Positions 17,358-26,788 of a stretch of DNA of 53,204 nucleotides are shown here, piece after piece (the stretch's first letter is position 1; each line of letters starts with the position of its first letter). The DNA lies in NCBI GenBank assembly GCA_015486845.1, contig WFQU01000098.1, positions 1 through 53,204 on the forward strand, read 5' to 3'. Position numbers and translations under genes: made by a program. The notes below the pieces were generated by a model. That model was given only the letters and a program-made list of their open reading frames with translations, was not told the DNA's origin and did not search any database. Origin of the DNA: Anaerolineae bacterium (GTDB taxonomy: Bacteria > Chloroflexota > Anaerolineae > JAADDB01).

Positions 17358-17924
17358 GTGGACATAGAACCTTCCGGCCAAATTGTAATGGTGACCGGCA
17401 GCATCAATGCCGGCAAAACGACATTCTGTCAATACGCTGTGCACACGGCCAGAAAAACGGGAATCCGCGTAGCAGGACTTCTTTCGCGTGGCGTTTGGTC
17501 ACAAGGACAAAAAGTCGGCGTCACGATAGAAAACCTCAGCACTGGTGTGCGCTGGCCATTTGCGCACAGCCAACAGACTTTTCCCGGCCCCTCATTCGGA
17601 CGTTTCTCCTTTTCCCAACAAACGATTGATCAGGCTAACAACTATTTAAACGACCTCCGTACTATCATCATCGACCTACTCATTATCGATGAGATCGGCC
17701 CGCTGGAATGCACGCAAGGGGAAGGACTACAAGCGGTGTGGCCGCTCCTGGCCGGAGGGCAATACCGAACAGCGATCATCACAGTACGACCGCGGCTTAT
17801 TCCAGTCTTGCAAGAACGTTGCGGTACAGCCATCAAAGGCGTACTATCAGCCGAAAACAGTACCCAACAACAATTATGGGATGACTATCTACGATTAACC
17901 AGTTTTCAGGGGCGTGATGCATGA
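17358..17924 (+). CDS. Nucleoside-triphosphatase, THEP1 family (NTPase_1)
   Basis: A protein of 188 residues from GTG 17358. The track's start at 17193 would translate the leader structure, so it is rejected. Walker A GSINAGKTT is at about residues 14-22 and Walker B LLIIDEIGPLEC in the middle, with the DEIGPLE motif characteristic of THEP1 NTPases. Members hydrolyse NTPs in vitro, but their cellular role is unsettled. It is first in a unit with a complete ECF transporter and overlaps the ATPase gene by ATGA. That coupling suggests it acts in uptake or first use of the transported compound. Confidence 0.88.
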   Translation: MDIEPSGQIVMVTGSINAGKTTFCQYAVHTARKTGIRVAGLLSRGVWSQGQKVGVTIENLSTGVRWPFAHSQQTFPGPSFGRFSFSQQTIDQANNYLNDLRTIIIDLLIIDEIGPLECTQGEGLQAVWPLLAGGQYRTAIITVRPRLIPVLQERCGTAIKGVLSAENSTQQQLWDDYLRLTSFQGRDA

Positions 17925-19501
17925 TTGTCGCCGAAAAAATGTCCTTCTCCTACGGAAAGCACGAGGTGTTACACGACATTTCATTACAAATCGCCGACGG
18001 TGCGTTTGTGTTAATCAGCGGTCCTTCCGGCAGCGGCAAGAGCACTTTAGCACGAACTTTCAACGGCTTGGCTTTCCAGACACAGCGGGGCGGAAAGATG
18101 ACCGGCGCACTACACGTGGACGGATTAAATGTGCGCCAGCAAGAAATCAGTGCGTTGGCAACACGCGTGGGCATGATTTTCCAAATCCCGGCCACCCAGC
18201 TTTTCAATCTGCGCGTCGAGGAAGAGATCGCCTTCGGGCCACACAACTTAGGTTGGAATGAGACAAAAATCCAACGGCAGGTGGGCTGGGCCATGGAAGC
18301 AGTCGGTATAACCCACCTCCGCCAAAGAGAAGTGCGTACGCTATCGGGTGGCGAAAAGCAACGCTTAGCCATCGCCAGCGTTTTGTCCATGGGTCCCCGC
18401 CATTTAGTGTTGGACGAACCAACGGCTGCGTTAGATATTCCCGGCACCCAACAAGTGTTGTCTACACTAACGGATTTGAACCAGAAAGAAGGACGCACTA
18501 TCGTCATCATCGAGCACCGCTTAGGCGAAGTAGCCCCTCACGCCAAATGGGCCATTTTGCTGCAAAATGGCCATGTCGCGGCGCAAGGTGAAACAGACTC
18601 CTTGCTCGGCAATCGAACTTTACGCCGGCAGTTAGGATTGCGCCGGCTCACCGACGAGCCGCAACACAATTGGCAAGAACTGTTAGTGCCGACTGAGCCG
18701 CCCAACACCAATCCATTGATCTCGTGCCACCACGTCACTGGTGGCTACCAAAAAGGGCAACCAATCATCAAAGACGTGAGTTTTCAATTGCACCAAGGAG
18801 AATTCGTTGCCTTAGTGGGCAACAACGGTAGCGGCAAGAGTACCATCGCACGCTATTTAGCGGGTTCGCTGCGTCCCTGGACAGGAGAAATCGAATTCGC
18901 CTGGGGTCCAAAACACGCCCGAGAGGGAGGGCAGGTGGCACTGCTCATGCAAAATCCTTTGCAGCAACTTTTTTGTGAACGGGTAGACGAAGAAGTGCGT
19001 TTCGGCCCCCAAAATTTCCGTCAATTGGACGAAACCCTGGTTCAGCGCGTGCTGGAAATTTTAGATTTGACGGCACTTACCCGACGGCCACTCTTTGCGC
19101 TAAGTCGCGGGCAACAACAACGGGTCGCGTTGGCATCGCTCTTAACACTTTCGCCGCGTTTACTTATCTTAGATGAACCGACCATGGGACAAGATTGGGG
19201 TCATTTGAGCCGTTTTATGGGCTATTTACAAACGCTCAATGCTCAAGGATTGACCATCTTGCTCATCACACACGATTACAAATTAGTGCATCGCTATGCG
19301 CATCGCGTCCTGCTCTTAGATCAGGGTCGGATCATACTCGAAGGCAAGCCGCAAATTGCGGTGCAAAAAACGGCTGAAAACGCCCCCTATCCCCCAACCT
19401 TGGGGGGAACGCACCCCCCAGAATTGGAGGCCGGGGATAACAACTCGGCCCAGCGACTAAAAGTCACGGCAACACCTGCAAAATCGCCCTACGGCAATTA
19501 G
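17921..19501 (+). CDS. Energy-coupling factor transporter, fused double ATPase (EcfA-EcfA')
   Basis: A 526-residue fusion of two ECF-type ABC ATPases (CbiO/YkoD-like) that powers vitamin or metal uptake. Domain 1 has GPSGSGKST (34-42), TLSGGEKQR (about 140) and LVLDEPTAA. Domain 2 starts near 265 with GNNGSGKST (about 305), then LSRGQQQR (about 394) and LLILDEPTM. ATG overlaps the NTPase stop (ATGA). The last 40 or so codons, after VQKTAEN, are encoded by two adjacent dispersed repeats (19384-19440 and 19452-19556), and the TAG stop is inside the second. The conserved ATPase ends before them, so function need not be affected. Confidence 0.93.
   Translation: MIVAEKMSFSYGKHEVLHDISLQIADGAFVLISGPSGSGKSTLARTFNGLAFQTQRGGKMTGALHVDGLNVRQQEISALATRVGMIFQIPATQLFNLRVEEEIAFGPHNLGWNETKIQRQVGWAMEAVGITHLRQREVRTLSGGEKQRLAIASVLSMGPRHLVLDEPTAALDIPGTQQVLSTLTDLNQKEGRTIVIIEHRLGEVAPHAKWAILLQNGHVAAQGETDSLLGNRTLRRQLGLRRLTDEPQHNWQELLVPTEPPNTNPLISCHHVTGGYQKGQPIIKDVSFQLHQGEFVALVGNNGSGKSTIARYLAGSLRPWTGEIEFAWGPKHAREGGQVALLMQNPLQQLFCERVDEEVRFGPQNFRQLDETLVQRVLEILDLTALTRRPLFALSRGQQQRVALASLLTLSPRLLILDEPTMGQDWGHLSRFMGYLQTLNAQGLTILLITHDYKLVHRYAHRVLLLDQGRIILEGKPQIAVQKTAENAPYPPTLGGTHPPELEAGDNNSAQRLKVTATPAKSPYGN
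19384..19440 (+). repeat. GC-rich hairpin repeat inside the end of the ECF ATPase ORF
   Basis: CCCCCAACCTTGGGGG-type and CCCCCCAGAATTGGAGGCCGGGG sequence is similar to the reverse complement of 15452-15512. It is translated as a Pro-rich stretch. Confidence 0.6.
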
Positions 19502-19556
19502 CATGCACAACCTGCGCAGGCAGGTTTCGCAGTTGTGGCAGCGATTTCTAATCGCC
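19452..19556 (+). repeat. Four-hairpin repeat, copy 3, overlapping the ECF ATPase stop
   Basis: Same order of hairpins as at 9531-9633, with some decay in the first two (AGTCAC, GGCAAT). The mutated second hairpin supplies the TAG that ends the ATPase ORF at 19501. Confidence 0.85.
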
Positions 19557-19600
19557 GGGCGAAGCAGACTGTGCGCATCAGCGTTCTATTTTTCGGAGAA

Positions 19601-19635
19601 GAGGGTAGCCGAGGGCAATGCCCTCGGCTACCCTC
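19601..19635. repeat. Perfect 17-bp inverted repeat (GAGGGTAGCCGAGGGCA)
   Basis: The hairpin has a one-base loop. A near copy is at 34058-34092. Both are flanked by TTTTCGGAG on one side and AGAGAAGTTTATTTTCA on the other, so they belong to one larger repeat. Confidence 0.8.
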
Positions 19636-19689
19636 CAGAGAAGTTTATTTTCACATGGGCCTGTGGCCTGCCTGTGCGAGCATGCAGAC

Positions 19690-19778
19690 AGGCGCACCAC
19701 AGCGGATGAAAATGAAGATCAGCGTGCATCAGCGTTAATCAGCGTTCTATTTTCAGAGCATTCTATTTTCAAGGGAGG
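19690..19778 (+). repeat. Intergenic repeat ending in an SD, in front of the ECF S component
   Basis: The phrases ATCAGCGTGCATCAGCGTT and TATTTTCAAGGGAGG are present. The AAGGGAGG end is the SD of the ATG at 19786. The same arrangement is seen before the genes starting at 208, 47601 and 53056. Confidence 0.75.
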
Positions 19779-19785
19779 CAGTAAA

Positions 19786-20400
19786 ATGGCAAAGAAAGGT
19801 TTTTCAGTTCGAGAGTTGGTCTACATCGGCTTGTTTGGAGCGCTTTGGGGCGCGTTGGAAATGACTTTGGGGGCGACATTGCACAATATCAAGTTCCCAT
19901 TCACCGGCCTGGTCATGGGCGGCTTGGGCATGGCAGTGTTACTAACCGGTTATTACTTCGTGCCTAAGCGCGGTGCGTTGCTATCTATCGGCCTCGTCAC
20001 TCTCATTCTGAAAGGATTCAGCATAGGCGGCGTGGTGCTCAATCCAATGATCGCGATTTTCATGGAAAGCTTGCTGGCTGAGATTGGGTTGGTTATAGCC
20101 GGCAGCAAGCTACCAGGCTATCTGATGGCCGGCGGTCTGGGAGCAAGCTGGAACGTCATTCACCCCTTTTTCACGCAAGGTGTGTTGGCCGGCCAAGGAT
20201 GGTACGCCATTCTACAGCGCACGGTCAGTCGGGGCGCTAGAATGTTGGGACTTTCCCCTAACGCCGTCATCGCAGTCATGATTGCCTTGGTTGCCGTGTA
20301 TTTCATCGCCGGCGCTTTGGGCGGACTGGTAGGTTGGACGGTCAGCCGGACCGCGGCCCGGCGGCTAAACAGTTTCGACGAAGCAGAAGCATCATCTTGA
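19786..20400 (+). CDS. ECF transporter substrate-binding membrane protein (S component)
   Basis: A 204-residue membrane protein with about six hydrophobic segments. Helix 1 has the ECF S-component pattern (LVYIGLFGALWGALE), with small residues that would pack against the T component. ATG 19786 is selected by AAGGGAGG 7 bases upstream; the track's extra 56 codons are translated repeat. It lies between the ATPase and T-component genes of one ECF system and is coupled to the latter. I cannot match it to a vitamin-specific S family. The upstream leader suggests a compound linked to molybdenum or tungsten cofactor, but this is inference. Confidence 0.82.
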   Translation: MAKKGFSVRELVYIGLFGALWGALEMTLGATLHNIKFPFTGLVMGGLGMAVLLTGYYFVPKRGALLSIGLVTLILKGFSIGGVVLNPMIAIFMESLLAEIGLVIAGSKLPGYLMAGGLGASWNVIHPFFTQGVLAGQGWYAILQRTVSRGARMLGLSPNAVIAVMIALVAVYFIAGALGGLVGWTVSRTAARRLNSFDEAEASS

Positions 20401-21128
20401 TGAAAGGATCAACAAGCATCCAAGTGGATGCGCCACCTCGCCGGCGCATCCACTTGGGCACACGCGGCTATTTAACGTACTTCCTATTCACACTTTTCGT
20501 CAGCGTGCTGGCGCGGGGTAGCCGTTTGTTCATAGCCATCGGCGTTATTGTTGGATTGACGCTGCTCATTGCGCCCAGTGCGCTGCGCTTACTGCGAGAT
20601 TGGCGCTTCTGGTTATTCCCGCTTATTCTCATCGCCAGCAATCTCTGGATCTTGCCGGCCGATGCCTATTTCCATGGCATCCCTTACGCCCAAGCCGGCG
20701 TGAATCAAGGGCTGCAAATGTCGTTACGCAGCATCGGCATTATCCTGGGCATGCAAGGACTAAGTCGGAGCATCTCCATCAGCGAGATGGCCGCGCTGCT
20801 GGAACGGGTTAGCCGGCCCGGATTAGGGTTCGCTCTCGGTGTAGCCATCAATATGCTGCCACTGCTGCAAGAAAACGCACACAACAGCTTTCAGGCACTA
20901 AAAATGCGCGGCGGCCTGCGCCACCGCAGACTGCAATCGTTGCGCCTACTTTTCATCAGCGTGTTAGTCAGCACCTTGCGAGATGCTGAAGATATTGTCG
21001 CCGCCGCCCAGGCACGCGCCTTTCGCCCCGACCAGGCCCAACGGCAAGCATTAATAACTAGTGACCAAGACAAACCCCTGGCTATTGGCCTCATCTTGTT
21101 AACGGCCTTGCTAATCTGGCCTCTCTAA
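20400..21128 (+). CDS. ecfT: ECF transporter transmembrane protein (T component, EcfT/CbiQ family)
   Basis: A 242-residue scaffold membrane protein of the ECF system. The start ATG at 20400 shares its A with the preceding TGA stop (TGATG). Four to five membrane helices are visible. The two cytoplasmic coupling motifs near LKMRGGLRHRR and AAQARAFRPD correspond to the EcfT segments that contact the ATPases. It completes a full ATPase-S-T set in one operon (17358-21128), so this is a dedicated group I-type ECF transporter. Confidence 0.88.
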   Translation: MKGSTSIQVDAPPRRRIHLGTRGYLTYFLFTLFVSVLARGSRLFIAIGVIVGLTLLIAPSALRLLRDWRFWLFPLILIASNLWILPADAYFHGIPYAQAGVNQGLQMSLRSIGIILGMQGLSRSISISEMAALLERVSRPGLGFALGVAINMLPLLQENAHNSFQALKMRGGLRHRRLQSLRLLFISVLVSTLRDAEDIVAAAQARAFRPDQAQRQALITSDQDKPLAIGLILLTALLIWPL

Positions 21129-21185: not shown

Positions 21186-22133
21186 TTAAAAACTGCGACC
21201 GTGACTCCAATAGAGGGCCAGTGCGCCAACAGCCGCCGCATCGATGACCAACGCGAACAAAGGACCTAAACAAGGCACACCGCGGGCAACCAGTACCAAC
21301 AAGAAAACGCCCAACGCCGCAGCTAAAGCTGAGCGGTGGGGCTCGTCAATAGACAGGCCTAAGTTAGAGAAGAACAAATCGCCGAGCAGTGCACCAATGG
21401 CAGCCCATCCGACTAGCCCGGCCACGAACAGCAAAAGAATAATCAGTATGCCTAGCAAAGAAAGACAAATCGTGACAATCGTGATCGCGGCCAGCAAAGC
21501 CAGCAATACCAGCAAAATCAGGCCAACCACAAAAGCTAAAACACTCTCACGCCGCAGAACGTCAGCCGTCCCGGCAACACCTTGCGGCCAAATTACCGTG
21601 ACGAACCACGCCAGCGCAGCCGCGACCAAGGCCGTCAAAACAGTCTTGAACGCCCACCAGATTAGCCCCAATAGCGAGCCACCAAATCCAAAAACGCCAA
21701 AATCCGCCCGTCCGAAGTCATCGAAAGGAAACAGGTGCCACGTCGTGTGAAAGCCGCCCCGGTTGACATGTCCACCGATCCGAGCCATTGGCGCTCGCTG
21801 CAAATCACCGCCACGGACCGTGACATTGCCGCCTACATCGGCCTGGTCGCCCAAGTAAAGATTTCCCCCAACAACAATTAAGTTGCCATCGATACGCCCG
21901 TCGATCCGGGCGTCGCCACCGGTAACCGTCACATTGCCGGCCACGGTACTCCCAGCGGCTGTGCTCAGGTCACCGCCCACTACAATCAAATCCGTACTTA
22001 CACGCTCACCAGCAGCCAAAGAAAAATCGTGCCCCACAATCACCTGATTGGGCAAAACCGCATTAGCCTGCGCTGACAAAGGTAGCAGTAACAAAAGCAA
22101 CAACGGCCCTATCAATCGCCAGCGTTTCATCAT
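21186..22133 (-). CDS. Bactofilin-like polymer-forming membrane protein
   Basis: A protein of 315 residues from ATG 22133, which has AGGGGGT upstream; the track adds 40 non-coding codons. A signal peptide precedes a repetitive beta-helix-like region (about 30-130) with units such as LIVVGGDL, VTVTGGDA and LIVVGGNL, as in bactofilin/polymer-forming cytoskeletal proteins. A second hydrophobic half with about five membrane helices follows. This architecture (extracytoplasmic bactofilin-like repeats plus a membrane domain) is common as an uncharacterised envelope protein. Function unknown. Convergent with ecfT. Confidence 0.72.
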   Translation of the reverse strand: MMKRWRLIGPLLLLLLLPLSAQANAVLPNQVIVGHDFSLAAGERVSTDLIVVGGDLSTAAGSTVAGNVTVTGGDARIDGRIDGNLIVVGGNLYLGDQADVGGNVTVRGGDLQRAPMARIGGHVNRGGFHTTWHLFPFDDFGRADFGVFGFGGSLLGLIWWAFKTVLTALVAAALAWFVTVIWPQGVAGTADVLRRESVLAFVVGLILLVLLALLAAITIVTICLSLLGILIILLLFVAGLVGWAAIGALLGDLFFSNLGLSIDEPHRSALAAALGVFLLVLVARGVPCLGPLFALVIDAAAVGALALYWSHGRSF

Positions 22134-22169
22134 TTTTGACCCCCTAATCTTAATATGCTCTCGGAATGG

Positions 22170-22198
22170 TTGACATTTCCCACCAACGCGGCTATAAC
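22170..22198 (+). promoter_or_regulatory. Promoter of the deoxynucleoside kinase genes
   Basis: TTGACA and TATAAC are separated by exactly 17 bases. The start would be near 22205, giving a leader of about 37 bases with SD AAAGGAG. Confidence 0.75.
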
Positions 22199-22241
22199 AA
22201 GCCGGTAACAGTTTCATTTTCCCGAAAGGAGCGCAAGAAAA

Positions 22242-23270
22242 ATGCACGATCAATTTTACATTGCCATCGAAGGTCCCATCGGTGTCGGCAAAACAACGTT
22301 AGCCCGGCTGCTCAGCCAAGCATTCAACAGCGAGTTGCTATTGGAAGTTTTCGAAGAGAATCCGTTTCTCAGCGACTTCTATGCCGACCGACAACGCTAT
22401 GCTTTCCAAACCCAGATTTTCTTCTTGCTCAGCCGATATAGCCAACAATATGGCCACGTACAACCTATTTTAGCACATTCTGCGTTAATAAGCGATTATC
22501 TTTTCGCGAAAGACAGGCTCTTCGCCCACTTGAATCTGCAAGGGGATGAAATCAATGTCTATGAACGGGTACACCAGGCTTTGAGCGCCAATATTCCAAC
22601 GCCGGATTTGGTGGTCTATTTGCGCGCCAGCAACGATACTTTGATGCACCGCATTGTTTCCCGGGATCGGCCTTACGAACGCAACATGGATCGGTCGTAT
22701 ATTGCCGCGCTAAGCCAGGCCTACGACAACTTTTTCCATGAGGATACCGGCCTGAACATATTGACGATTGACACAGACGAGATCGACATCGTTTCCCGAC
22801 TCGAGGACCGGGCCAACGTTATCGGCCGGGTACGTGCTGCTTTAGAGGAAGGTGCCACTCAAGCCTTGTTGCCCGGCCTGGAACAAATCGTTCCGGCCCC
22901 CGCCGGCAGCCACAGCCAAACCGATCACCGCCGCTTAGGCGATTTTCAGCGTTGGCACAAAGCGTTAGACCACGAAAAAGGATTCCACAACGATATTTAT
23001 ATGAACTTCATTGCCCTCAACGAAGAGATCGGCGAAGTGGCCAAACTTCTAAAACTCAGTTGGATGAAACAGATCACCCTGACGGAAAAGGGGATGCCTC
23101 TATCGCAAGCCGAACGACAAGCAATACGAGGACACCTGCCAGAACTGAAAGAAGAGTTAGCCGATGTTTTAGCGTTCGTGCTGAAAATCGCCAACGATTT
23201 GGACATCGATTTAGAAACCGCCTACATTGAGAAAATGACCCACAACTGGACGAGGATGTGGGAACCATGA
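22242..23270 (+). CDS. Deoxynucleoside kinase fused to a MazG-like pyrophosphohydrolase
   Basis: A 342-residue two-domain protein. Residues 1-205 are a deoxyadenosine/deoxyguanosine kinase-type dNK: P-loop GPIGVGKTT (11-19), the FEENPFLSDFY substrate segment (37-47) and lid RDRPYERNMD (141-150). After a linker, residues 233-342 are a MazG-like fold with EEIGE (261-265) and EELAD (304-308), the metal-binding EExxE and ExxD pair. The first half phosphorylates deoxynucleosides; the second would remove pyrophosphate from a (d)NTP. No frameshift or stop separates them. SD AAAGGAG. Overlaps the next kinase gene by ATGA. Confidence 0.88.
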   Translation: MHDQFYIAIEGPIGVGKTTLARLLSQAFNSELLLEVFEENPFLSDFYADRQRYAFQTQIFFLLSRYSQQYGHVQPILAHSALISDYLFAKDRLFAHLNLQGDEINVYERVHQALSANIPTPDLVVYLRASNDTLMHRIVSRDRPYERNMDRSYIAALSQAYDNFFHEDTGLNILTIDTDEIDIVSRLEDRANVIGRVRAALEEGATQALLPGLEQIVPAPAGSHSQTDHRRLGDFQRWHKALDHEKGFHNDIYMNFIALNEEIGEVAKLLKLSWMKQITLTEKGMPLSQAERQAIRGHLPELKEELADVLAFVLKIANDLDIDLETAYIEKMTHNWTRMWEP

Positions 23271-23917
23271 ACCCACAACAATATTATTTCATTGTCATCG
23301 CCGGCAATATCGGCGTGGGAAAATCAACATTAACCGAAATGCTCAGCAGCGAACTTGGTTGGGCGCCGTTCCTCGAGGCAGTCGTCGAGAATCCCTATCT
23401 CGCCGATTTCTACACTGACATGAAGCGGTGGAGCTTCCACTCCCAGGTTTTCTTCCTTAGCCGACGCTTGCGCCACCATTACCAGTTATTGCAGGAAAAG
23501 AACTCGGTCATCCAGGATCGCAGCGTCTACGAGGATGCCGAAATCTTCGCCGAAAACTTGTACCGGCAAGGCGCTATGTCCGCCAGAGATCATGCAACGT
23601 ACCGGGGTATCTACCAAGTCGTCACCGAAATTCTGCCGCCGCCCAATTTGATCGTCTATTTGCGGGCATCGGTACGAACATTGCAAGCACGTATTGCCCG
23701 GCGTGGTCGGCAATACGAGCAAAGTATAGACCCCGCCTATTTAGCACAATTGAACAGCCTGTACGATGAATGGGCAGTCAATTTCCGGCTTAGTCCCGTG
23801 CACAGCATCGACACCGACCCGCTGGATTTTGTCCAGCGACCAAAAGATTTCAGCCAAATCGTACAGCGTGTGAAACAAGCGTTAAAGCACACAGCGGCGG
23901 CGCCCACTACCTCGTGA
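23267..23917 (+). CDS. Deoxynucleoside kinase (deoxyadenosine/deoxyguanosine kinase family)
   Basis: A protein of 216 residues from ATG 23267, which overlaps the upstream stop (ATGA) and has GAGGAT 8 bases before it; the track's GTG is three codons earlier. P-loop GNIGVGKST, VVENPYLADFY, the arginine-rich DRS motif (QDRSVYEDAEIF) and lid RRGRQYEQSID fit the dNK family. It is a paralogue of the preceding kinase domain without the MazG part. Tandem dNK genes often form a heterodimer (dGK/dAK), as in lactobacilli. The 3' end overlaps the convergent DUF84 gene by 11 bases. Confidence 0.92.
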   Translation: MNPQQYYFIVIAGNIGVGKSTLTEMLSSELGWAPFLEAVVENPYLADFYTDMKRWSFHSQVFFLSRRLRHHYQLLQEKNSVIQDRSVYEDAEIFAENLYRQGAMSARDHATYRGIYQVVTEILPPPNLIVYLRASVRTLQARIARRGRQYEQSIDPAYLAQLNSLYDEWAVNFRLSPVHSIDTDPLDFVQRPKDFSQIVQRVKQALKHTAAAPTTS

Positions 23918-24464
23918 GGAACAGCTCCGGGCGCAACAACGGCACTAAAGCGAATTGCAGCGCCCGGGCTAGATAATCGATACGTTGCACAGCGCCAAAA
24001 GTCAACGCGGCCACCGCCCCGCCCTGCTGCCGATCAGCCATGGCGCCCCATAAACCTTCCACCAGCGGCCCCAGTTCTTCACCAGCAGCCAGCCGTGCTC
24101 GCCAGGCCAGGGGCAACGGCACCAGACCGCCGTGGCCGTAGGAAAGGTGCCCCGTAGCCGGGCGTAAAACAGCCGCCCACGCCGTGATGAAAAACGCACC
24201 CAGCGCCTCTGCATAAACGGCGCCCCCTTCCAACCCGACCGTCAAATCAGCGTCAGGGCGCAAACGAGCTGCAGCTCGCGCCCGGTTGGCCGCGCCGGCG
24301 GCTGTTTCCTCTTCCCCGCACGGCTGAGCGGCAACGCCAGAAAGTGCGCTAACCGTTTCAACAACAGCCTCAGGCCAGCGCCGAGCTATCACCTGCTGAC
24401 AGGCAGTCAGCTTGGCCCGGTTGCGCGAACCCACAACCACCAGCATCGGCTGGAACGTTGACAC
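23907..24464 (-). CDS. DUF84 non-canonical purine NTP phosphatase (YjjX-like)
   Basis: A protein of 185 residues. The family hydrolyses inosine and xanthosine triphosphates to keep damaged purines out of nucleic acids. The N-terminal VVVGSRNRAKLTA motif, EEETAAGAANRARAA, and VGLEGGAV are the family hallmarks. The start is GTG 24464, three bases after the stop of the upstream dehydrogenase gene; an ATG six codons later is the alternative. Its position beside the kinase/MazG genes (convergent) makes a nucleotide-pool neighbourhood. Confidence 0.85.
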   Translation of the reverse strand: MSTFQPMLVVVGSRNRAKLTACQQVIARRWPEAVVETVSALSGVAAQPCGEEETAAGAANRARAAARLRPDADLTVGLEGGAVYAEALGAFFITAWAAVLRPATGHLSYGHGGLVPLPLAWRARLAAGEELGPLVEGLWGAMADRQQGGAVAALTFGAVQRIDYLARALQFALVPLLRPELFLTR

Positions 24465-24467
24465 CTG

Positions 24468-25460
24468 TCAGCGACTCCCCCGGGAAACCACCGGCGTGAT
24501 ATCCAACATGGTGTGCAGGCCTGGTGGTGCTGTCAACAAACTGCGAATGGCGTTGATGGTAATGGCCGCTGTAGCCCAGTCACCTTGCAAATCGGAGAGC
24601 GTCACACGAAAAGGCAACACGCCTTCATAAACCACTTCACCGCCCGCATTTTCTTCTTCCAGCGCCATAGTCAACGATAACCGTATCCGCTCTTCGCCGG
24701 CGATAACGCCAACTGCAGTCTGCGTGCCGCCAATGACAAAGCCCGGTTGCACTGATCCCAAGAGCGATTTATAGGAACGCTTAGCAACCAGAAGTTCATG
24801 CCCCAAGCGAATCTCGTCTACCTGCCAATCTAACGCCGCAGCCAGCAGTGTCAACGACGTAGCCAAGCCTACATGCCCCATTTTGCCAGCAGCAAAAGCG
24901 AAATTGGCGTCCTCCGGCTTCATCCCGACACCCATTTTCTGCTGCAGTTGCCGGCGACGCTGCGTGAGATTTACCCGCCGGTGCACTTCTATCCTTTTCA
25001 CATCCGGCAACGGCGCCGAAGCCAGAAAAGGCAACGCGTCCATGGCAAAGCCAGGATTAATGCCAGTACCCAAAACGCCCACACTCTTGCTGCGCGCTAA
25101 GCTATCCATTTCTTTCCACAACGCTGCGTTATCCGCCGTCGGATAAGCCAGCTCTTCACAAGTCGAAACAATGGATACTCGGGCCAGAATAATCGGCTTG
25201 ATTTGCGCCAAAAGAGCGTCCAAATGCGACGAAGTGGTCACTACAGCCACATCGGGATACCAATCCCGCAGTGGTTCCAGGTCGCCATTGACCACGATGC
25301 CTCGCGAACAGGAGAAACCACACACTTCGCCGAGATTCTTACCCATTTTATCGGGGGCGATATCCACAGCGCCAACCAATTCCATGTCATCCCGTTCACT
25401 GATAAGCTGTGCCGTCCGGCACCCAATGGGGCCTAATCCCATCTGCATCACTCGAAACAC
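24468..25460 (-). CDS. Dihydrodipicolinate reductase-like dehydrogenase (Ord/2,4-diaminopentanoate dehydrogenase family)
   Basis: A protein of 330 residues from GTG 25460, which has AAAGGAG at the right distance; the track's GTG at 25469 sits on the SD itself. N-terminal Rossmann motif QMGLGPIGCRTAQLI binds NAD(P)H. The layout (GAVDIAPDKMGK, CGFSC, TCEELAYP, GTGINPGFAMD) is that of the Ord family, which acts in ornithine fermentation. No other ornithine-degradation gene is present, so the substrate is uncertain. Followed 3 bases later by the DUF84 gene, likely one operon. Confidence 0.8.
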   Translation of the reverse strand: MFRVMQMGLGPIGCRTAQLISERDDMELVGAVDIAPDKMGKNLGEVCGFSCSRGIVVNGDLEPLRDWYPDVAVVTTSSHLDALLAQIKPIILARVSIVSTCEELAYPTADNAALWKEMDSLARSKSVGVLGTGINPGFAMDALPFLASAPLPDVKRIEVHRRVNLTQRRRQLQQKMGVGMKPEDANFAFAAGKMGHVGLATSLTLLAAALDWQVDEIRLGHELLVAKRSYKSLLGSVQPGFVIGGTQTAVGVIAGEERIRLSLTMALEEENAGGEVVYEGVLPFRVTLSDLQGDWATAAITINAIRSLLTAPPGLHTMLDITPVVSRGSR

Positions 25461-25576
25461 AGTAAACACTCCTTTCTAAAATCATCGGGCCACGGCTTAA
25501 GTCATGGCTTTACTTCTGGTGAATAAAATTCGCGACGACCTCTGCCCAACTAACCTACGCCAGAATTAGAACAATT

Positions 25577-26788
25577 TCAGCAGTCGGCTAATTGAATGTT
25601 ATCCGCCCGCAACAAACGCAGACGCACTGCATTCAAGGCAGAGCGGGCTATCCAACCGTGGCTCACTTCATCATTGCCATTAAAAGGCAAAGTAGTCACT
25701 ATCGGAGTCGTATCCGCGACCAAAGCGAGGAAGGTCACGCCCGGTTGTTCTCCAGGCTCGGGGAAACGCCCGCCGCCGGGAACACCGGTGAGCGCCAGAC
25801 CAAAATAGCCTTCGCCGGCAGCTTGTTGGGCTAATGTGCGGGCATCCGTCTCAGTAGTCGCCGTCATCTGCCCGGCAGGAACCGACAGCCAGCGGAAGAA
25901 GCCAGCCTGCCACAGCGCTTCCCAGCCGGCAAAAGCCGCTTCAGCGATAGCTGTGCGGGCAACAACAACCTTCAGACGGTTCTGCTGCAACAGATTCATG
26001 ATCACCTGCGCCAAAGTGTCCTCATCCTGGCCGAAAATAGCATCGCCCAATCGCCGCTTAATTTCGGCTACCACGGGCGCCAATAACCGATCCGCTTCTG
26101 CCTCATTGGGCGCTTTAGCTGTCACGCGGACATCAGTCTCGCCTTCGTGGGCAGCCAAACCAACCGTGGGGTTCGACATTGTCTCGAAATCAGCAATCAG
26201 CACATCAATGTGACTTTCGCCTACCCCAACGGTGTGTAGCACGACTGCTTTAATCAGCGCTGAAGGCGTTTCACTTCGTCGTTGCAAATACGGCAACACA
26301 TCGTGAGACAACAGATATTTCATCTCGCGCGGCACGCCGGGCAACGAAATGACAATCCCCGACGCAGCCTCAACGATAAACGCCGGCGCAGTGCCCACCG
26401 GGTTATGGACAACGATAGCTCCGACAGGCAAATAAGCCTGGCGTAAATTATTCTGGCCCATTTCGCGCCCTAAGCGCTTGAACAAAGCCCCGACATCCGC
26501 GATTAAGTCCTCACGCAATTGCAATGGTTGCTGCGTTGCCGCGGCAACCGCTTCACGGGTCATATCATCCACCGTAGGACCCAATCCCCCGGTCGTAATG
26601 ACGACATCGGAGCGGGACAAAGCTGCCTGCAAGGCCTGGACAATACGTTCCCTGTTATCGCCAACAGTCGTTTTGATGTAAAGATTAACGCCGATCTGGC
26701 GCAGCGCACGAGCAATGTCGCGGGCATTGGTGTCCACAATTTCCCCCAGCAACAATTCCGTGCCAATAGAAAGAATTTCAGCATTCAT
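25577..26788 (-). CDS. cinA: CinA family protein (nicotinamide-nucleotide amidohydrolase type)
   Basis: A 403-residue, full-length CinA. Residues 1-170 form the MoaB/Mog-like (MoCF_BD) domain with SIGTELLLGEIVDTN and TTGGLGPTVDDMT, which in homologues is an ADP-ribose or CoA pyrophosphatase. The C-terminal CinA domain (about 250-400) would deamidate NMN. The C-terminal catalytic Ser/Tyr motifs look less typical than in E. coli YgaD, so deamidase activity is not certain. SD AAAGGAG. The MoCF_BD fold does not indicate a role in molybdenum cofactor. Confidence 0.9.
   Translation of the reverse strand: MNAEILSIGTELLLGEIVDTNARDIARALRQIGVNLYIKTTVGDNRERIVQALQAALSRSDVVITTGGLGPTVDDMTREAVAAATQQPLQLREDLIADVGALFKRLGREMGQNNLRQAYLPVGAIVVHNPVGTAPAFIVEAASGIVISLPGVPREMKYLLSHDVLPYLQRRSETPSALIKAVVLHTVGVGESHIDVLIADFETMSNPTVGLAAHEGETDVRVTAKAPNEAEADRLLAPVVAEIKRRLGDAIFGQDEDTLAQVIMNLLQQNRLKVVVARTAIAEAAFAGWEALWQAGFFRWLSVPAGQMTATTETDARTLAQQAAGEGYFGLALTGVPGGGRFPEPGEQPGVTFLALVADTTPIVTTLPFNGNDEVSHGWIARSALNAVRLRLLRADNIQLADC

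Follow-up and report, generated by a model that had tools for sequence, protein, structure and literature searches.

Through deoxynucleoside salvage, damaged, deaminated, and methylated nucleosides re-enter the pool of DNA precursors, and the ways in which cells exclude them from DNA are only partly known. Deoxyguanosine kinase (Dgk) converts deoxyguanosine to dGMP, and MazG enzymes hydrolyze a dNTP to the dNMP and pyrophosphate. In B. subtilis, dgk and the deoxyadenosine/deoxycytidine kinase gene dck are adjacent, in that order, and share a 4-base overlap of the ATGA type (reference record with both genes annotated, L128). For deoxynucleoside kinases (dNKs), the triphosphate of the substrate acts as an inhibitor (PMC11662666). 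Two enzymes with the MazG fold are relevant to the locus described here. DCTPP1 (RS21-C6; dCTP pyrophosphatase 1) is a stand-alone, MazG-like all-alpha NTP-PPase; its pocket residues include His38, Glu63, Glu66, Trp73, Glu95, Asp98, and Tyr102, and the enzyme is reported not to hydrolyze dGTP (PMC4491611). MazZ of cyanophage S-2L is (d)GTP specific and converts dGTP to dGMP (PMC8342488), which is also the product of Dgk; MazZ is not fused to a kinase and works with PurZ in 2-aminoadenine synthesis.

The window (the whole 53,204-nt stretch of Anaerolineae DNA that was analyzed) contains a kinase pair of the B. subtilis type in which the first kinase carries a C-terminal MazG domain (Table 1). 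The first-pass annotation had described a dNK and a MazG domain with an intact EExxE/ExxD motif in one open reading frame, and both points are borne out. In a single frame, the dNK profile (PF01712; cutoff, 27 bits) matches residues 7 to 199 with 129 bits, and the MazG profile (PF03819; cutoff, 22 bits) matches residues 258 to 333 with 22.7 bits, barely above the cutoff. The catalytic acids E261, E262, E265, E305, and D308 are all present on alignment, where their absence had been considered a possible weakness.

Table 1. Coordinates of the kinase-MazG fusion gene, its parts, and the two genes that follow it in the window
Feature	Position	Strand	Basis
RBS-like AAAGGAG, before the fusion gene	22225..22231	+	Direct reading of the sequence
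Fusion gene, 342 aa, dgk-type dNK followed by a MazG domain	22242..23270	+	Pfam; full-length homologues
Kinase domain, residues 1-205	22242..22856	+	Pfam dNK, E 2.6e-37
Linker, residues 206-228	22857..22925	+	Alignments; sequence and length vary among homologues
MazG domain, residues 229-342	22926..23267	+	Pfam MazG, E 1.2e-4
EEIGE, residues 261-265 (EExxE metal-binding motif)	23022..23036	+	Alignment of homologues
ELAD, residues 305-308 (ExxD metal-binding motif)	23154..23165	+	Alignment of homologues
dck-type deoxynucleoside kinase, 216 aa, dNK paralogue of the fused kinase	23267..23917	+	Pfam dNK, E 2.5e-54
Convergent DUF84 NTPase, inosine/xanthosine triphosphatase-like	23907..24464	-	DUF84/NTPase_I-T, Pfam E 3.2e-36

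A sequencing artifact joining two genes had also been raised as a concern. The fusion is not an artifact of assembly, since a whole-protein search found full-length matches at 48 to 72% identity in ~42 of 150 related genomes, on unrelated contigs; an assembly join is effectively ruled out. The nearest homologue (L034, from another genus of the same family) is 72% identical end to end, and the full-length fusion is conserved at 48 to 72% identity in the 28 relatives with an intact tail. Among 350 genomes spread over the phylum, the fused form is confined to the class of the window, and the matches to the two close kinase homologues outside this class (G159 and G288) cover only the kinase part. 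The only match in a scan beyond the phylum, a cytidylate-kinase-like gene of Peptoniphilus, was spurious. A phage or plasmid origin was rejected: the dNK-MazG arrangement was not found in the viral contigs searched, and none of the phage and plasmid records covers 80% of the fusion query. A literature search, with subscription papers outside its scope, found no paper joining dNK and MazG. The fusion is real, old, and class-wide in reach; it combines known and individually ordinary enzymes in a new domain architecture and is not a new kind of system.

The sequence of the fused kinase points to the Dgk subtype, which would phosphorylate deoxyguanosine. B. subtilis Dgk is the nearest named kinase (35% identity; 137 bits, versus 84 bits for Dck), and SDY occupies residues 84 to 86, where Dck has DRS; the surrounding SDYLFAK aligns with ADYHIYK of Dgk. 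The P-loop (GPIGVGKT, residues 11 to 18), the ENP motif following the catalytic Glu (E35-V-F-E-E-N-P), and the Arg-rich lid (RDRPYER, residues 141 to 147) are conserved in an alignment of 43 homologues. The plain kinase downstream, which matches PF01712 with 184.6 bits, is closer to B. subtilis Dck (150 bits, versus 132 bits for Dgk), with which it shares 35% identity and the motif DRSxYED (here DRSVYED). Its start codon (ATG at 23267) shares bases with the stop codon of the fusion gene (TGA at 23268 to 23270), so the ATGA coupling of a neighboring dNK paralogue was correctly identified in the first-pass annotation. The tandem is nevertheless not peculiar, as had been supposed, because gene order, the 4-bp overlap, and the Dgk and Dck matches all agree with the known dgk-dck salvage operon of B. 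subtilis. Whereas B. subtilis Dgk stops at 207 aa without a MazG tail, the Dgk-type kinase of the window carries one, and this tail is the sole novelty relative to that operon. In 51 of 81 homologous loci, the dgk-type gene is followed immediately by a dck-type gene in the same orientation; some of the other loci are cut by contig ends. Neither a dgk-type nor a dck-type kinase was detected (E 1e-10) in three genomes of the same family (G002, G004, and G005; drafts 86 to 92% complete), and the whole pair may therefore be dispensable within the family.

By sequence profile, the tail falls among MazG-type enzymes. The profile built from the fused MazG halves matched enzymes of this type with solved structures, with E values of 3.4e-11 to 7e-7, including SSO3215 (3.4e-11) and RS21-C6/DCTPP1 (2.4e-10). 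Structure prediction of the whole fusion from one sequence failed (pLDDT 38.6). A model of the MazG half, built from three sequences (its own and those of two viral-contig MazGs), was all helical (pLDDT 73), and its top fold match was DCTPP1, with a probability of 1.00, a weak E value of 0.024, and a TM score of ~0.5. DCTPP1 has the same EExxE/ExxD acids, and its H38, W73, K121, M122, N125, and R128 align with identical residues in the window (H239 and W274 among them). The window MazG differs in being fused, in having a longer loop connecting helices 2 and 3, in lacking an aligned partner for Trp47, and in having F312 at the position of Tyr102. The complete DCTPP1 pocket (His38, Trp47, Trp73, and Tyr102) is thus not found, and because of the missing Trp47 and the replacement of Tyr102 by Phe, the domain is not classed as a dCTPase. 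Because the counterparts of His38, Trp73, Lys121, Asn125, and Arg128 are retained, however, a purine substrate seems no more likely than a dCTP-like or modified pyrimidine one. MazZ has the MazG metal site, but its match to the fused-MazG profile is weak (E 4.4e-4), too weak for its guanine-pocket residues Ile56 and Asp60 to be aligned.

The fate of the tail in relatives was compared across 81 dgk-type homologues, including that of the window; unfused homologues were sampled, so that proportions do not represent population frequencies. Four states were found: an intact MazG domain (29), a MazG domain with a broken active site (14 of the 43 with a recognizable MazG tail), a short extension of 70 to 120 residues, none of those scanned giving a Pfam match (14), and no tail, with the kinase retained but ending soon after its domain (24). 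Regardless of tail state, almost all homologues preserve the P-loop and ENP motifs of the kinase. Compared profile against profile (hhalign), the short extensions matched MazG with a probability of 90.6%, an E value of 1.3e-6, and a score of 41.6, whereas the best of ~200 column-permuted controls scored 13.9 (a few failed permutations scored zero) and the reversed control scored 13.3. These values indicate that the extensions are MazG remnants; no single remnant is long enough to be significant by itself, and unrelated sequences could account for two or three of these 14 extensions (L086, L107, and perhaps L106).

Only four of the acids were used to define the intact group, yet its pocket residues are near-invariant: H239, K331, and N335 are each present in 28 of 29 sequences, and M332 and R338 are present in all 29. 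These positions align with the pocket and the C-terminal motif of DCTPP1/RS21-C6. Eroded tails have lost the pocket as well, retaining the Lys in 4, the Asn in 2, and the Arg in 5 of 14. Loss of the pocket together with the acids argues that intact tails, including that of the window, are probably kept for catalysis. One eroded homologue belongs to the family of the window (L058:5543-6565, minus strand): its fused MazG domain is present with the acids replaced (RH..E / H..H), and it offers a handy natural comparison for the window copy.

In a tree with 30 stand-alone MazG proteins, which were of one kind and from the same class as the window, all 43 fused MazG domains fall on one side of a single branch (support, 99/90), and this clade was recovered in all 200 bootstrap trees examined. 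One old fusion is the likeliest origin, since the fused domains form one clade against the stand-alone proteins. Several eroded tails sit on long branches of this tree. On the kinase tree, tail states are interleaved, and the strongly supported branches require a minimum of 3 changes for eroded tails, 3 for absent tails, and 5 for intact tails; for example, L082, without a tail, is sister to L053, with an intact tail (99/92). Repeated loss after a single fusion would be the simplest reading, and some tail-less lineages could predate the fusion. In unfused relatives, neither a separate neighboring MazG gene nor decayed MazG sequence beyond the stop codon was found. Because the active site has been lost recurrently, the tail looks like an optional accessory and not the core of a new machine, and its catalysis is not essential to the arrangement, given that 14 of 43 tails are broken and 14 more have been reduced to short remnants. 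The series from active to dead, shrunken, and lost tails is the most interesting part of the comparison.

The favored reading, with a probability of roughly 0.55, is that a MazG tail gained once on the dgk of a dgk-dck operon performs a useful but dispensable removal of a salvage-derived triphosphate. A Dgk-type kinase of the salvage operon would have acquired the tail long ago in this bacterial class. The kinase domain would form the monophosphate from deoxyguanosine and, probably, from similar purine deoxynucleosides, and the tail, dimerizing beside it, would hydrolyze a dNTP to dNMP and pyrophosphate, thereby removing a triphosphate that salvage itself can generate. The target could be a damaged, deaminated, or methylated nucleotide or a surplus normal nucleotide that would otherwise inhibit the kinase. 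Dispensability is suggested by the repeated loss of this function in relatives that have kept the kinase. The first-pass annotation considered the two activities opposed, which holds for the net effect on the triphosphate pool; otherwise, the reactions are not mirror images, as both end at the monophosphate, and together they would raise the monophosphate and lower one triphosphate. Its suggestion of house-cleaning or pool control was a reasonable guess, and salvage-coupled clean-up or trimming of a dNTP appears the likeliest role in the window. Placing a kinase on the same chain as a domain that destroys triphosphates would tie salvage directly and physically to clean-up, and since active, inactivated, shrunken, and lost tails coexist in one class, the role is testable by comparing close relatives.

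Several observations count against this reading. The Pfam score of the MazG domain is marginal, and the domain departs from the DCTPP1 pocket at Trp47 and Tyr102. The genome encodes other MazG proteins, namely, a canonical MazG (contig C167) and a stand-alone MazG (C177), so general clean-up is already covered; a HisE-like protein of the MazG fold is present as well. The C177 protein (128 aa) has the same motif as the fused domain but belongs to a separate clade. Many relatives keep the tail without an active site, which suits a noncatalytic role, and no nucleotide-metabolism neighbors beyond dck are conserved across the 81 loci. A more specific version is offered tentatively, as possible rather than probable: the salvage kinase would police its own products, with the tail destroying wrong triphosphates admitted by salvage and becoming a dead helper in many descendants. 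If this is true, the natural series of tails would show an enzyme domain turning structural.

The main alternative is that the tail serves chiefly in assembly or regulation, its catalysis being secondary and often lost. Paired MazG helices would then make the kinase dimer a tetramer or tie Dgk to Dck, raising affinity, and the 14 full-length tails without catalytic acids and the 14 short helical remnants whose profile matches MazG are consistent with this. The deoxyadenosine kinase of Giardia intestinalis owes its tetrameric state to extensions at its N and C termini, and its KM rises ~50-fold when both are deleted (PMC11662666); its C-terminal extension thus matters for assembly and affinity but, unlike the tail in the window, is not a MazG domain. 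MazZ, in turn, forms a tetramer of tight dimers (PMC8342488). A pure scaffold would have no need, however, of the whole metal site and pocket kept by the window copy and 28 others, 24 homologues retain the kinase without any tail, and the long branches of eroded tails are as expected under relaxed selection. This alternative is considered doubtful.

A second alternative is a valve, by which MazG would convert the kinase end product dGTP back to dGMP and thereby both lift feedback inhibition and limit the size of the dGTP pool. Such a valve is conceivable because guanine-specific MazG enzymes exist (PMC8342488), and it would suit a Dgk-type kinase subject to the inhibition by its own triphosphate that is described for dNKs (PMC11662666). 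It is unlikely, as the pocket aligns with that of a dCTPase reported not to hydrolyze dGTP (PMC4491611), the similarity to MazZ is weak, and a kinase and a hydrolase acting on the same base would constitute a futile cycle. Less likely still is a neutral fusion, in which the joining of dgk and mazG was tolerated without coupled function and is decaying in many lineages. Repeated erosion and loss (at least 3 changes of each kind) with the kinase unaffected would be expected of such a fusion, but 29 of 81 homologues across the class keep all catalytic residues and the wider pocket despite deep divergence.

The convergent neighbor noted as an ITP/XTP phosphatase does match DUF84/NTPase_I-T, below the NCBIfam equivalog cutoffs for inosine/xanthosine triphosphatase, and it overlaps the 3' end of dck by 11 bp. 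A functional link is unsupported, however: of 80 other loci, just 1 has DUF84 near the kinase pair, and because it is not conserved there, its position is not evidence of shared function. The gene is probably outside the system. The most recurrent neighbors are a divergent polymer-forming protein, often accompanied by an ECF-type sigma factor and an anti-sigma-like protein (named by sequence reading); the polymer-forming membrane protein occurs in 18 of 81 loci, 15 of which have a MazG tail. This recurrence supports orthology of the loci rather than a nucleotide function. In the window, a polymer-forming, bactofilin-like membrane protein is encoded divergently from the fusion (21186-22253, minus strand).

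Farther downstream, the product of 24468-25469 (minus strand) carries a C-terminal domain of the 2,4-diaminopentanoate dehydrogenase type that scores far under the NCBIfam equivalog cutoff, so its substrate is uncertain. A CinA-type protein (25577-26788, minus strand) has a normal N-terminal half and a barely recognizable C-terminal CinA (NMN deamidase) domain (PF02464, E 0.0066, below the cutoff). Upstream, positions 17921-21128 (plus strand) encode an apparent energy-coupling-factor transporter, with consecutive open reading frames for a double ATPase and for S-like and T-like membrane proteins, as read from the ORF list.
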